DNA of 39,934 nucleotides from Rikenellaceae bacterium. Lineage in GTDB: Bacteria > Bacteroidota > Bacteroidia > Bacteroidales > Rikenellaceae. This document shows positions 7,621 to 13,394 of this stretch, piece after piece. Both the position numbers and the translations under genes were made by a program. Below the pieces are notes generated by a model, which was not told the origin of the DNA, did not search any database, and was given only the letters and a program-made list of their open reading frames with translations. The stretch is taken from the NCBI GenBank assembly GCA_031262465.1, contig JAISHQ010000117.1, positions 1 to 39,934 of the forward strand. The letters are read 5' to 3'. The stretch's first letter is position 1; each line of letters starts with the position of its first letter.

Positions 7621-9243
7621 ATGGAATATCGCAATTCAAAACGAAATATTTGGGCACCGATCGTCGTCGCGGTGGCGGTGGTGGCTGGCATTTTGTTGGG
7701 GCAACGCCTGCCCAGACCGGTGCAATACGATGGGAGACAGTCGTTTACCCCGCCGATGGCCGGGTTGACCACAGACAAGTTGGATCAGGTGTTGACGCTC
7801 ATTTACGGCCAATATGTCGACGAGCCGCACCTGGATTCGATCGAAGAGTTGGTTATTCCGACGATTTTGGAGAGCCTCGACCCCCATTCGGCCTACATCC
7901 CGGCCGACGAGTTGGCGCAAGTCAACGAGTCGATCGACGGCCATTTCGACGGCATTGGGGTGACATTCAATATGTTGAACGACACAGTACGAATCATTAC
8001 CGTCATCGGCTCAGGCCCCAGCGATCGGGCAGGCATCCGCGCAGGCGACCGCATCCTGACCATCAACGATTCGATTGTGGCCGGTCGGTCGATCCCGCAG
8101 GACAGCATCGTCGGTCGCTTGCGCGGGCCGCGCGGCACCGAGGTTCGCTTAGGCATCGAACGGCAGGGGGTCGACGGGCTGTTGCCGATCACCGTCATCC
8201 GGGGCGTAATCCCGATCCATAGCGTCGACGCGGGCTTTATGGCCGGCTCGGAGGTGGGTTATGTGCGCCTGTCGCTCTTCTCGCGCACCTCGCATCAGGA
8301 GATTGTCGAGGCCGGCGCACGGCTCAAAGCCGAGGGGATGAAGTATTTTATCATCGACCTGCGCGGCAATTCGGGCGGGCTGTTGGATCAGGCGATCTAC
8401 ATCGCCAACGAATTTCTGCCCGCCGATGCGCTGATCGTCTACACCGAGGGGTGGGCGAGCCGCCGCAACGAGCAGTTCAGCAACGGTCGCGGCGTTTTTC
8501 AGGACATCTATCCGATCGTTTTGATCGACGAGGGGACGGCCTCGGCCAGCGAGATTGTCGCCGGAGCTTTGCAGGACAACGACCGGGGGACGATCATCGG
8601 CCGCCGTTCGTTCGGCAAGGGGTTGGTGCAGGAGCAGATCGAATTGGGCGACGGTTCGGCCCTGCGGCTCACCATTGCCCGCTATTATACCCCCGTGGGG
8701 CGAAGCATCCAAAAGCCTTACGAACAGGGCATTGAGGCCTATCAGAACGACCTGCGCGACCGTTTCGAGCACTCGGAACTTTTCTCTGCCGACAGCATCC
8801 GCTTTGCCGATTCGCTGAAATTTACCACCCCCGGGGGCAAGACGCTCTACGGCGGCGGCGGGATTATGCCGGACGTTTTTGTCCCGTTGGATACCACGGC
8901 GCAGAACCCCTATCTGGTTCAGGTCGTCAACCGCAACATCCTCTTTCAATACGCCACACGCTACACCGACCAGCACCGCGAGGCACTCAGCGCCATCCAA
9001 ACGCTCCCGGAACTGACCGCCTATTTCGATGCCGACACCGGGATGTTCGACGGCCTGGTGCGCTATGCCGCCCAGCAGGGCGTGCACCCCAAAGGGGACG
9101 AGTTGGCCACCGCCCGCGACGAGCTGACGGCCTACCTCCGCTCCTTTGTCGGGCGAAATACCCCGCTGGAGGGCAATGCGGCAGTCTATTACCTGTTACC
9201 GTTTGATCCGGAATATCGAGAGGCAGTGTCTGTTATTGAATAG
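7621..9243 (+). CDS. S41 family C-terminal processing peptidase
   Basis: The 540-residue protein has an N-terminal membrane anchor (about 11-27), a PDZ domain (about 100-190, with DGIGVTFN and GIRAGDRILTIND) and an S41 catalytic domain. The Ser-Lys dyad is visible: Ser308 in EGTASASEIVAGALQ and Lys333 in SFGKGLVQ, 25 residues apart as in E. coli Prc. IIDLRGNSGG at 244-253 is the oxyanion-side motif. These enzymes trim C-termini of periplasmic proteins. About 140 residues follow the core, probably a helical domain common in Bacteroidota homologues. The last 11 bases overlap the 3' end of the convergent M56 gene, so both stop codons lie inside the partner's frame. Confidence 0.93.
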   Translation: MEYRNSKRNIWAPIVVAVAVVAGILLGQRLPRPVQYDGRQSFTPPMAGLTTDKLDQVLTLIYGQYVDEPHLDSIEELVIPTILESLDPHSAYIPADELAQVNESIDGHFDGIGVTFNMLNDTVRIITVIGSGPSDRAGIRAGDRILTINDSIVAGRSIPQDSIVGRLRGPRGTEVRLGIERQGVDGLLPITVIRGVIPIHSVDAGFMAGSEVGYVRLSLFSRTSHQEIVEAGARLKAEGMKYFIIDLRGNSGGLLDQAIYIANEFLPADALIVYTEGWASRRNEQFSNGRGVFQDIYPIVLIDEGTASASEIVAGALQDNDRGTIIGRRSFGKGLVQEQIELGDGSALRLTIARYYTPVGRSIQKPYEQGIEAYQNDLRDRFEHSELFSADSIRFADSLKFTTPGGKTLYGGGGIMPDVFVPLDTTAQNPYLVQVVNRNILFQYATRYTDQHREALSAIQTLPELTAYFDADTGMFDGLVRYAAQQGVHPKGDELATARDELTAYLRSFVGRNTPLEGNAAVYYLLPFDPEYREAVSVIE

Positions 9244-11560
9244 TTCCCGCCTCTGACTGCCGCGTTTCAGCCGCAATTGCCGCTTTTTGAAGGCGGCTCA
9301 AATTGCTCTTTTTTGTAAAAACATGAATCGCTCCGTATCTTCCTTTTTCGCCGAAGGTTTCAAGGGCACCTTCGGCTGTTACGACCCTGATTGATTCAAC
9401 CGTACTGATGTCGATTGAATTGGGATCGAAGCCCTGTTCCATCTCTACACCGTCGACAAAGACCAGCAGAGGGCCTTCCGGCTTCTCTGTCGAAGCCATC
9501 GACAGGACAGGCAGGGGTGTCGCGGGACGTATCATCGAATCCGGCTCAAGGGTCGACTGCGTGAAGAACCAAGAGCGAGTATCGTTCTCCGTACCAGCGG
9601 GTTTCTTCCGCTGTCCAGCTCCGACGACAACAACCTCTGAGGGGGCATCTTGCTCCGTTTTATGCTTGCGGGTGGTAATAAGGATCGCCCCGTTTTTACC
9701 CTCCTCGCCATAAATTTCGGTGGCGCTTTCTTTTCTTAAAAAAGAGATACTCTCTACACTATCAGGAAGAATATTTAAGCCCTGTCCCTGTTCCATTTTC
9801 ACGCCATCGACAACCACCAGCCTACCTTTTATACTTTCTGCCGAGGCCGTGGGCTGAGCGGGAGCGGCGGGCTGGGGTGTCGCGGATTTTCGCACGATGA
9901 CACTCGGCAACGAGGGGTCCGTGTCATCCTGGCGAGTCGTTATCAGTACCACCCCGTTTTTCCCCTCCTCGCCATAATAGACCTCGAGAATGCTTTTGTT
10001 TTTTATGACAGAGACACTCGTTATATCCAGTTGCGTAAGATCGGTAGTTCCTATATCCCTTTTTTCGCCGTCGATGAAAAGCAACGGGTCTCCTTCCGGC
10101 ACTTCATCCGTGGCCGAGGCCGAGGCCGAGACCGTGAGCTGAGCGGGAGCGGCGGGCTGAGGTATTGTTTGGCCACGGGAGGTGTAGAGGATTGCGCCGT
10201 ATTTTCCCTCCTCGCCATAGCGTTCGATCGCTTTCTCTTTCTTTAATACCGTGACGCTCGCGTAGTTATTCGGAAGGAGGTTTAAATCCGTAATCCTTTC
10301 TCCATCAAGGAAATATAGAGGCGTTCCCTCTCTTATAAGCATCATTGCGGCCATCGTTACAACACCCTGTTGTGTGTCTTCTTCATATTCGAGCACAAGA
10401 GTGGGGTCTTCCTCCGCTCCATCGCCGAAAGTGGTTATCAAGTACGCACCGTTTTCTCCCTCCGAGCCATACGTTGCGGTGGCGTTTTCGGGGTTTAACC
10501 CGACCCACGTCTCCACGTTATTGACTTTAAACGAGCCAGCTCCTTTTTTCCATTTATCGCCATTGACAATGATTAAGGGTTCTCCTTTCGGCGCCTCTTG
10601 CGAGGTCATGAACGTTTGAGTTTGCGGTGGATTGGCCTGTTCGCCGGGGAACGTCTGGGGTGCGCTTTGGGGTGCGGGTTGGGGTGCGCTTTGGGCGGTG
10701 AACGAGAAGAGCGTCATCAGCAGGGCGCAAGTCGGCAGGGCCAGCGCGATCCGGTATTTCGATCGGCGAGTGTTGGTTCGTGTCATCATAAGCAACCGGT
10801 TTTTAAGGAGCGAGTAACTGAACCCGCTGACAAACTCCGGATGAATGTCGGCCAAGGTTCCGATTAAAAGGGTGATGTATTGTTTGGTGTCGACCCCCAA
10901 ATCGAGCACCGCCGCGTCGGCCTGGTATTCATGAACCTCTTTGAGCGAGCGGCACCAGAGCCACACAAACGGGTTCCACCAAAAGAGGATCAACACCCCC
11001 TGAACAAAAAGCGAATCGTAACTGTGTCCGAGGCGGATGTGGGCCATTTCGTGGGCCACGATCCGGGAAAGGCCGTCGTTGTCGGGGGTCGGCGCAGGGT
11101 TGATGAAAATGTAACGGAAAAAGGAATAGGGCGATTTCACCGTCTCGTGGCAAACGATCTTCACGCCTGCCTGCTCGACAGCCTCGGCACGCCGCACCGT
11201 GCGGCGCATCCTCAGCACGTGGCGCGCAACGCCACCCAAAAGGATTGCCACCCCCAAGAGGTAGACCCACAGCGCGATAGCCTCCCAATGGGGCGCGGCG
11301 GGGGTTTCGGGCATCGGGGTTTCGGGGACAAAATCCAAGTAATCTTGCCATGCACCGAGATCGAACAGTTCGACCGGAACGGGTTCCGGGGCCGGCCAAA
11401 CCGGGATCGACAGCGCGGGGAGGATAAACGCCAACGCCACCGCCCCCAACAGGTAGGCGCGGTTGTGGCCAAAAGCGTTACTCCGGCGCATAAACAGCCG
11501 GTAAACCACCCAAAACAGGGCGATGCAAATTTGCACCTCTATGATATAAGGCAGGTTCAT
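9233..11560 (-). CDS. M56 (BlaR1-like) membrane metallopeptidase with five tandem plug-like domains
   Basis: The 775-residue protein starts with a BlaR1/MecR1-type membrane peptidase: helices at about 4-21, 36-53, 94-111, 186-201 and 278-297, the zinc motif HEMAH at 170-174, and a second metal-ligand region EVHEYQAD near 208-215. In place of a beta-lactam-binding sensor the outside part (300-775) holds five copies of a ~55-residue unit like the TonB-receptor plug: 326-379, 412-463, 490-543, 579-633 and 695-750, each with xVDG, an SI.V.K segment, a YG.EG.NGA turn and an ITT-like strand, joined by Pro/Ala/Gln-rich linkers. The linkers before units 3 and 4 are nearly identical in DNA, showing recent duplication. 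The last ~23 residues are encoded by a degenerate 3' repeat hairpin (9279-9297). It follows the BlaI gene by 26 nt. Such peptidases cleave BlaI-type repressors on sensing; the signal here is unknown. Confidence 0.88.
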   Translation of the reverse strand: MNLPYIIEVQICIALFWVVYRLFMRRSNAFGHNRAYLLGAVALAFILPALSIPVWPAPEPVPVELFDLGAWQDYLDFVPETPMPETPAAPHWEAIALWVYLLGVAILLGGVARHVLRMRRTVRRAEAVEQAGVKIVCHETVKSPYSFFRYIFINPAPTPDNDGLSRIVAHEMAHIRLGHSYDSLFVQGVLILFWWNPFVWLWCRSLKEVHEYQADAAVLDLGVDTKQYITLLIGTLADIHPEFVSGFSYSLLKNRLLMMTRTNTRRSKYRIALALPTCALLMTLFSFTAQSAPQPAPQSAPQTFPGEQANPPQTQTFMTSQEAPKGEPLIIVNGDKWKKGAGSFKVNNVETWVGLNPENATATYGSEGENGAYLITTFGDGAEEDPTLVLEYEEDTQQGVVTMAAMMLIREGTPLYFLDGERITDLNLLPNNYASVTVLKKEKAIERYGEEGKYGAILYTSRGQTIPQPAAPAQLTVSASASATDEVPEGDPLLFIDGEKRDIGTTDLTQLDITSVSVIKNKSILEVYYGEEGKNGVVLITTRQDDTDPSLPSVIVRKSATPQPAAPAQPTASAESIKGRLVVVDGVKMEQGQGLNILPDSVESISFLRKESATEIYGEEGKNGAILITTRKHKTEQDAPSEVVVVGAGQRKKPAGTENDTRSWFFTQSTLEPDSMIRPATPLPVLSMASTEKPEGPLLVFVDGVEMEQGFDPNSIDISTVESIRVVTAEGALETFGEKGRYGAIHVFTKKSNLSRLQKAAIAAETRQSEAGTIQ
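9279..9297 (+). repeat. Degenerate first hairpin of the 3' structured repeat
   Basis: GCCGCTTTTTGAAGGCGGC forms a stem like the first hairpin of the repeats at 472 and 21571 and is followed by the same CTCAAATTG-type spacer and a CTCTTTTTTGTAAAAA run. It lies 35 nt after the S41 stop in its sense direction, but here it is also coding sequence for the C-terminus of the M56 protein on the other strand. Confidence 0.55.
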
Positions 11561-11586: not shown

Positions 11587-11985
11587 TTACTTCTTGGACT
11601 CAATAGCCTGCTTGGCTATAGCCACAATCTCCTCAATCTCGCGGGTCGAAAGATTTTCCCGCTCGGCCAAAAAGGAGAACATTTGCGTGACCGAGTGGTC
11701 GAAAAAATTGCCGACCACGTTCTGCATCAGGGTTTGGGTGTACTCCTCGCGGCTAATCAGCGGGTAATAGCGGTGGCTTTTGCCAAAGGCCTCGTAGGAG
11801 ACAACGCCTTTTTTCTCCAAAATGCGCACAATGGTCGAAACGGTGTTGTAGGCGGGTTTCGGCTCGGCCATCTCGTCGAGAATGTCACTCACAAAGGCTT
11901 TTTCCTTGCGCCAAAGAATTTGCATCACCTCCAATTCGGCGCGCGTAAGTTCCTGCCGGGGTTCGCTGTGTCTGCGGTGTTTCAT
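11587..11985 (-). CDS. BlaI/MecI-family transcriptional repressor
   Basis: The 132-residue protein has the winged helix of the BlaI/MecI/CopY family at about 13-80 (LTRAELEVMQILWRK, then YNTVSTIVRILEKKGVV) and a C-terminal dimer helix region. In the studied systems the dimer blocks its own operon until an M56 partner causes it to be cleaved. The M56 gene follows by 26 nt and the propeller lipoprotein gene ends 8 nt before it, so the three are likely one transcript. The candidate operator is the palindrome at 13233-13256. There is no beta-lactamase or PBP2a gene nearby, so a resistance role is not supported. Confidence 0.92.
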   Translation of the reverse strand: MKHRRHSEPRQELTRAELEVMQILWRKEKAFVSDILDEMAEPKPAYNTVSTIVRILEKKGVVSYEAFGKSHRYYPLISREEYTQTLMQNVVGNFFDHSVTQMFSFLAERENLSTREIEEIVAIAKQAIESKK

Positions 11986-11993
11986 GTTCGGTA

Positions 11994-13157
11994 TTATTTG
12001 AAAGTTATTAACATTAATATCGGATTGTCATTCTCGGTGACCCCTTTGAGCACGGCTTCCAGCTCTTTCGACTCCCATTTGTCGCGGTTTTCGAGCAGGT
12101 TTCCCGGCTGGAGCAGGATTGTTGCATAGCCAGGGTTCAACGTCCGGGCACATCGCTCAATGTTGAGCTGTCCGTTGATCGCCCCGATGCCCAATTTCGC
12201 CATGCCAAGCTCTCTGATTGAAAAAGAGTCCTCTCCGGCAAGGGTGAACCACCGCCCTTTCTGTTTGTCGTACACATAATTCTTTCCCTTCACATCCGGC
12301 GTGATCCACGGCATAGTGAGGATATTGCCCATGATGTATCGTTCGGTCTCGAACAGCGGCAGGAATTGGGCGTTGTCAGGGCCATACAACTCGCTGGGCG
12401 AGGGGTATTTGGTGATGTCGACAAGGGTCGGGATCATTTCGCCCTCGTTGGTCATCCGGTAGATCGTGTCGGTGCGAAGATCGAAAAGCGTCATGCCGTT
12501 CTTGTTGGCAAAGAGGTTGGGATAGGCCATTCGGCCATCCGGATCGTGAGCGTAAGGGATTAAGTCGATCGGGAATTTGCGGACGATTTTCCCGTCCTGC
12601 CGCGAAACGGTAAAGAATCCCTCGTACCCCATTTGGTCGAAGCAGATGATCTCCTCGTCGTTCAGCAACTGCATCCCTCCGAGATAAGCGTTGGATTCGA
12701 TCTTGAAATCGCGTTTAAATTCACCGGTCAGGCTATATACCAACAGGTTATCGAGCATTCCATCGTAAATATAAACCTCGTCCGAAGCCTCGTCGACCCC
12801 GACAAAGTGTTGAATCCAAAGATACTCCCCGGGGCCTCTTCCTTTTTGTCCAATTTTTCGGATCGGGTTGCCCTGCCGGTCGAATACATAGAGTTGGCCT
12901 TGGTTATTGTCTTTGTAGATCACGAATTGATCCGACACATAAGCCTCTCCGGCCTTGGCATTCGTTATTCCCGACATCAAAAAATCGTCCGATGTACCGA
13001 TCGGGATAAATTCGACATCGGCAACGTCCGCAAGGGTCAAATCGCTGGCCGGATAGTTGGTTTTGTAGTCGAAGACGATCACGCCGCCGCCCGCGCCACC
13101 TCCCCGACCACAGGCCATCAAGGTAGAGGCAAAAAGAATAACGAGTAGTTTTTTCAT
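11994..13157 (-). CDS. Six-bladed beta-propeller lipoprotein (DUF5128-like)
   Basis: The 387-residue protein begins with a lipoprotein signal, MKKLLVILFASTLMAC, with Cys16 as the lipidated residue, followed by a glycine-rich stretch. The mature part looks like the Bacteroidota 6-bladed beta-propeller family: FIPIGTSDDFLMSGITNAK, YVFDRQGNPIRKIGQKGRGPGEY and a repeated strand pattern. The function is not known in general; many members lie next to SusCD or signalling genes. I chose the ATG at 13157; a GTG three codons upstream is an alternative. It is the first gene of a probable operon with blaI and the M56 peptidase, so it may be a ligand-binding or regulated output component of that system; this is inference. 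Confidence 0.8.
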   Translation of the reverse strand: MKKLLVILFASTLMACGRGGGAGGGVIVFDYKTNYPASDLTLADVADVEFIPIGTSDDFLMSGITNAKAGEAYVSDQFVIYKDNNQGQLYVFDRQGNPIRKIGQKGRGPGEYLWIQHFVGVDEASDEVYIYDGMLDNLLVYSLTGEFKRDFKIESNAYLGGMQLLNDEEIICFDQMGYEGFFTVSRQDGKIVRKFPIDLIPYAHDPDGRMAYPNLFANKNGMTLFDLRTDTIYRMTNEGEMIPTLVDITKYPSPSELYGPDNAQFLPLFETERYIMGNILTMPWITPDVKGKNYVYDKQKGRWFTLAGEDSFSIRELGMAKLGIGAINGQLNIERCARTLNPGYATILLQPGNLLENRDKWESKELEAVLKGVTENDNPILMLITFK

Positions 13158-13227: not shown

Positions 13228-13256
13228 CAAAGTTACAACTATTTTCTTAGTTGCAA
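13228..13256 (-). promoter_or_regulatory. Promoter with overlapping palindrome, candidate BlaI operator
   Basis: On the minus strand TTG (13254-13256), an 18-nt spacer and TAACTTTG (13228-13235) form a good Bacteroidota promoter. The spacer is filled by an inverted repeat: TTGCAACTA, six bases, TAGTTGTAA (13233-13256; one mismatch in nine pairs). A repressor bound there would cover both boxes. BlaI family dimers bind such two-fold sites, and a BlaI gene is the second gene downstream. Confidence 0.65.
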
Positions 13257-13286
13257 AACTATTTGGGCAGTTTTTTTCATTGAGAC

Positions 13287-13357: not shown

Positions 13358-13394
13358 AAAAAAATCCCGGCCAATGTTTGGTCGGGATTTTTTT
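13358..13394 (-). terminator. Rho-independent terminator of the GlsB-type gene
   Basis: AAAAAAATCCCGGCC and GGTCGGGATTTTTTT form a stem with A and T runs on the two sides, so it can work in both directions. It lies about 20 nt after the stop of the minus-strand GlsB-type gene. Confidence 0.8.

Follow-up and report, generated by a model that had tools for sequence, protein, structure and literature searches.

The locus raises the question of whether a near-perfect palindrome, located between the -33 and -7 boxes of a promoter that precedes genes for a beta-propeller lipoprotein, a BlaI-family repressor and an M56 metalloprotease, is the site at which the repressor controls its own operon. A sequence-only reading of the window (the whole stretch of DNA analysed, 39,934 nucleotides) had proposed that a BlaI dimer would block RNA polymerase here, and the comparisons described below supported this interpretation. 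We put at roughly 0.92 the probability that the palindrome, named O1, is the promoter-proximal operator of the repressor encoded by the second gene of the operon, serving negative autoregulation, with two further promoters under the same control.

The operon, its promoter and the palindrome

The operon is encoded on the minus strand. Its first gene (positions 11994 to 13157) encodes a six-bladed beta-propeller lipoprotein (PF17170, DUF5128) with the lipobox LMAC, as read from the sequence. The second gene, blaI (11587 to 11985), encodes a winged-helix repressor (PF03965, 111.1 bits; cut-off, 22.6) and is the single PF03965 copy in the genome. It is followed by the gene of a BlaR1-like M56 membrane metalloprotease (9233 to 11560; PF05569, 52.5 bits; cut-off, 31) with HEMAH at residue 170. 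BlaI has 132 amino acids and zero cysteines and hence lacks the CXC copper motif; in line with this, its score against TIGR02698, the model for the CopY copper repressor, was 53 bits, below the cut-off of 121.95. The nearest solved relatives are MecI and BlaI structures (the 1okr group with 1sax and 2d45, and 1sd4 with 1xsd), some of which we take to contain DNA.

In passages of PMC7366714 and PMC4747536, the Bacteroides promoter consensus is given as TTTG at approximately -33 and TAnnTTTG at -7. The window promoter has both elements of a Bacteroidota sigma-ABfr promoter: a -7 box, TAACTTTG, at 13228 to 13235 of the minus strand (consensus TAnnTTTG) and, 18 bp from it, a -33 box, TTTG, at 13254 to 13257. 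A scan for the sigma-70 consensus was set aside as ill-suited to Bacteroidota. Upstream, a terminator-like hairpin with a T-run (minus strand, 13358 to 13394; -18.5 kcal/mol, z = -4.4) lies 3' of the PF04226 gene, an indication that the operon is transcribed from a promoter of its own. The minus strand across the promoter region reads TTTTGCAACTAAGAAAATAGTTGTAACTTTG.

O1 extends from 13233 to 13256 and reads, on the minus strand, TTGCAACTA-AGAAAA-TAGTTGTAA, running on into TAACTTTG; its core, AACTAAGAAAATAGTT, is at 13237 to 13252. The arms of 9 bp are complementary at 8 of 9 positions (one mismatch) and are separated by 6 bp, and O1 ends on the three bases with which the -7 box begins. The coordinates, arms and spacer of the palindrome, as well as its overlap with the promoter spacer and the first bases of the box, had thus been reported exactly. 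In addition, we detected a second dyad that had been overlooked. This distal operator, O2 (AACTGCCCAAATAGTT; minus strand, 13257 to 13272), has 9 of the 10 specified bases and is located exactly 20 bp upstream of O1, so that the -33 box falls at the O2/O1 junction.

As a bare palindrome, O1 is not rare. The window contains 15 palindromes of like quality (9-bp arms, at least 8 pairs, 6-bp spacer), compared to 3 to 10 across 20 shuffles, and this count is what favours a chance palindrome in an AT-rich promoter. The complete 24-mer had zero chance matches in shuffles, even with up to three mismatches allowed. The case for O1 is therefore built on conservation and not on palindrome rarity. A chance origin is very improbable given that the site is conserved upstream of blaI in the family and the phylum, as shown below, and that two near-identical copies are present elsewhere in the genome.

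The inverted repeat could also act as RNA, in an attenuator or terminator hairpin. Indeed, the O1 stretch folds better as RNA than shuffled sequences (-9.6 kcal/mol, z = -3.0). With these fold data considered, we rejected the RNA-hairpin reading because the repeat covers the promoter and precedes the predicted start of its transcript. Furthermore, the half-sites are conserved as letters, they are kept 6 or 7 bases apart, and a tandem pitch of 20 bp suits a DNA element, which together make a role as RNA hardly credible.

Conservation of the operator and its co-occurrence with BlaI

We compared 130 BlaI loci of the family, 30 returned as loci by the initial search together with 100 drawn from its additional listed matches. 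A separate search for related loci gave five. The absence of the motif from orthologous operons had been named beforehand as a result that would speak against the interpretation; AACTA-N6-TAGTT was found upstream of blaI in 65 of the 130 loci, including 41 of 41 with a BlaI similarity of at least 145 bits. When the 129 loci whose upstream sequence reached 120 bp or more were binned by similarity and sites within 250 bp were counted, the motif was present in 38 of 41 loci at 145 bits or more, in 16 of 27 at 131 to 145 bits, in 7 of 22 at 120 to 131 bits and in 0 of 39 below 120 bits; one of these last, L188, carries an exact copy at a greater distance upstream. The reversed control gave 0 in every bin. 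In the remaining three loci of the top bin, the window's own included, the site precedes an extra first gene and is about 1.1 to 1.3 kb upstream of blaI. In the other two (L031 and L032; that of L031 was read in L107), this gene encodes another lipoprotein, presumably a retropepsin-like aspartyl protease. A propeller as first gene was detected only in the window's operon among the 130 (phmmer with the window's propeller, which divergent ones could escape), while the M56 gene follows blaI in 127 of 129 family loci. On contig 1 of one genome (G013), three BlaI matches had identical score, identity and length, perhaps reflecting a repeated element.

An unsupervised dyad search upstream of BlaI recovered AACTA-N6-TAGTT in 61 of the 76 loci of the closer group, which was defined partly by the motif itself; the best shuffled dyad reached 3 to 6. 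Without grouping, the spacer of ACTA-N-TAGT in the 129 family loci peaked at 6 (73 loci) and 7 (13 loci), with a shuffled mean of 0.35. Two loci with a fairly close BlaI (L137 and L143, helix YST.ST) had no operator form upstream.

For genome-wide searches, the operator was anchored to the promoter as AACTA-N6-TAGTT-N-TAnnTTTG. Among 200 family genomes, 52 carried this pattern, with 58 sites in total, and its reversed control gave 0 in all 200. In the phylum, 216 of 395 sampled Bacteroidota genomes had a PF03965 match, and the reversed control matched in 5 of the 395. The pattern was confined to genomes with the repressor, both in the family (52 of 123 with BlaI versus 0 of 77 without; Fisher, 4.6e-14) and in the phylum (30 of 216 versus 0 of 179; Fisher, 5e-9), in tests that treat related genomes as independent and thus overstate independence. 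The strict pattern was missing from 71 of the 123 BlaI-bearing family genomes.

Of the 58 family sites, 51 adjoin a listed BlaI and one precedes a blaI cut by a contig end (G009). Two of the remaining six are the extra sites of the window's own genome, and four precede a lipoprotein gene. The latter are in four genomes of one other genus (L103 to L106), where the anchored operator is located away from blaI; DUF4837 was assigned to the one lipoprotein that was scanned. In the phylum, blaI was downstream of the site in 27 of 29 loci other than our own, counting L251 and L258, whose script flag arises from an open frame starting 6 bases before the site. The other two sites precede a membrane protein (L235) and no frame (L263). 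At L235, a tandem operator precedes this long membrane protein, which we take to be ABC permease-like, and there is no BlaI on that stretch. In a set of 29 BlaI loci from the phylum, our own left out, ACTA-N6-TAGT was present in 24, each alternative spacing between 0 and 12 in 2 or fewer, and the motif was found in 0 of 29 downstream windows (shuffled mean, 0.32).

The arrangement of O2 and O1 is also conserved, and operators mostly come in tandem, at a pitch of exactly 20 bp. A second copy matching at least 9 of 10 bases was located at exactly -20 in 37 of the 52 anchored family operators, the next commonest offset being +38 (5 operators). In the phylum set, an exact copy was found at -20 in 24 of 29 and at -40 in 8 of 29. 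Among the anchored family operators, the TTG of the -33 box is usually supplied by the right half of the upstream operator.

Recognition helix, further candidate targets and proposed mechanism

The recognition-helix motif of BlaI was scored against operator type in the 130 family loci. With YNT.ST (65 loci), the operator had the N6 form in 61, the N7 form in 2 and was absent in 2, while FNT.ST was accompanied by N7 in 10 of 10. YTT.AT (36 loci) went with CTAAANNTTTAG in 22, with no operator in 14 and with AACTA in 0. No operator was found with YTT.ST (7 loci), YST.ST (5 loci) or two singletons; YTT.SS had N6 in 2 and none in 1, and two loci in which the helix was not read had N6. Altogether, operators with a 7-bp spacer were seen in 12 loci, mostly with the FNT.ST helix. 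Operator type thus tracks the BlaI recognition helix, a correspondence that could act as a small specificity code. On the tree there are four independent pairs differing in a helix residue, of which about three agree and none opposes (P = 0.25), too few for power.

The sequence-only reading had also anticipated other targets in the genome. Indeed, a motif search found three exact copies of AACTA-N6-TAGTT, each followed by N-TAnnTTTG, for the one BlaI of this genome. In addition to O1, one (C79:18816-18840) precedes three tandem DUF5128 beta-propeller lipoproteins and the other (C20:11381-11405) a 174-amino-acid Fib_succ_major protein. The copy at -20, which matches 9 of 10 bases in the window, matches only 7 of 10 at these two promoters. 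Of the 26 DUF5128 matches in the genome, 4 are under an operator, indicating a small regulon and not control of all propellers. Relaxed searches were no better than the reversed control (bare 16-mer with one mismatch, 21 versus 71 matches per strand; anchored motif with three mismatches, 7+7 versus 7+9), and our claim is therefore limited to the three exact sites. A two-mismatch site outside these three is located at C25:25183. The sole genus-mate genome compared (82% complete) had neither BlaI nor the site.

That binding by BlaI is something we infer, and that two more promoters of the genome share the site, would suit an operator serving another regulator, with the copy before blaI reflecting control of BlaI by that protein. 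We consider this improbable, since the sites are confined to BlaI genomes in family and phylum and since both the spacing and the sequence of the operator track the BlaI recognition helix.

We favor BlaI itself as the ligand and propose the following mechanism. With a BlaI dimer seated on AACTA-N6-TAGTT, the stretch separating the -33 and -7 boxes would be covered, and a second dimer could bind O2, two helical turns upstream and next to the -33 box. The bound repressor would exclude RNA polymerase, resulting in negative autoregulation. BlaI would likewise repress two or more further promoters in the genome, among them those of the three-gene propeller-lipoprotein operon and of the small secreted Fib_succ_major protein. 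The cotranscribed M56 protease probably relieves repression once its envelope-facing domain is triggered.

The domains of M56 hint at an envelope or TonB-related signal. Four stretches fit a YGxxGxxG repeat pattern, and the C-terminal repeats resemble the SusC/RagA plug signature (TIGR04057, 63.5 bits; cut-off, 46.2), while the Pfam matches of the window protein were M56 plus weak M48/DUF6426 only. Among nine M56 relatives, Plug exceeded the Pfam cut-off in four (L111, L118, L119 and L109) and TonB_C in four (L118, L117, L107 and L119). The Pfam scan did not find a penicillin-binding domain in the ten M56 proteins (window plus nine relatives). A PADLOC scan of the three operon proteins pointed to no defence role and gave weak CARF-model matches only. 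For Porphyromonas gingivalis, a passage of PMC10470040 lists a gene of the BlaI/MecI/CopY family, next to one for an M56 protein, among those whose expression differs with hemin availability (-1.74 as listed).

More tentatively, and with somewhat less than even odds, Bacteroidota BlaI/M56 may be a phylum-wide non-antibiotic envelope switch. In such a switch, an M56 protein with TonB/SusC-plug domains would sense TonB-dependent transport or the outer-membrane state and free BlaI from operators with the 20-bp tandem pitch. The helix code would pair YNT.ST with N6, FNT.ST with N7 and YTT.AT with CTAAANNTTTAG, and the regulons would consist of surface lipoproteins, here beta-propellers.

Relation to known BlaI-family operators

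In Gram-positive bacteria, control by BlaI/MecI is the classic example of inducible resistance to beta-lactams. The operator found here points towards envelope lipoproteins and away from antibiotic resistance. In the open-licence PMC literature, we found no paper describing AACTA-N6-TAGTT as a Bacteroidota operator and none assigning targets of Bacteroidota PF03965 repressors. A reliable operator makes Bacteroidota BlaI regulons predictable from sequence.

The window promoter resembles the primary promoter of Bacteroides in its TTTG, 18-bp distance and TAACTTTG but differs in that its spacer is fully taken up by a repressor dyad. With the bla/mec divergons of Staphylococcus and Bacillus licheniformis, the window operon shares a PF03965 repressor gene adjoining an M56 protease gene, a 16-bp dyad with TA at dyad positions -5/-4 and +4/+5, and operators on the repressor's own promoter, several per promoter region. 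The staphylococcal site TACTACATATGTAGTA presumably contains ACTA-N6-TAGT in the same register as the window operator. For the B. licheniformis promoter region, the operators OP1 to OP3 are described in a passage of PMC3305447, OP1 containing TTACATATGTAA. According to a passage of PMC7253601, the CopR/CopY operator is RNYKACANNTGTMRNY, with 16 bases, and BlaI/MecI use TACA/TGTA. The window operator agrees in register with this 16-base consensus, which also argues against a regulator other than BlaI.

When AACTA-N6-TAGTT was aligned to CopY and BlaI sites at the dyad centre, the outer RNYKA half, which AACTA fits, was kept and the inner CA/TG was lost. A and T predominate in the six central bases, which read AGAAAA in the window site, and the CA/TG of TACAnnTGTA occurs in 0 of the 52 anchored family sites. 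Unlike CopY, the window BlaI has no CXC copper motif, and there are no copper genes in the operon. Unlike the BlaI/MecI systems, the operators are in tandem with a 20-bp pitch on a Bacteroidota promoter, the operon is devoid of beta-lactamase and PBP2a genes, and its M56 protein has SusC-plug-like repeats in place of the beta-lactam sensor domain of BlaR1/MecR1. In summary, judged by its sequence, the window operator belongs with the known BlaI/MecI operators as a variant form, and it is well supported as a regulatory element without being exotic.
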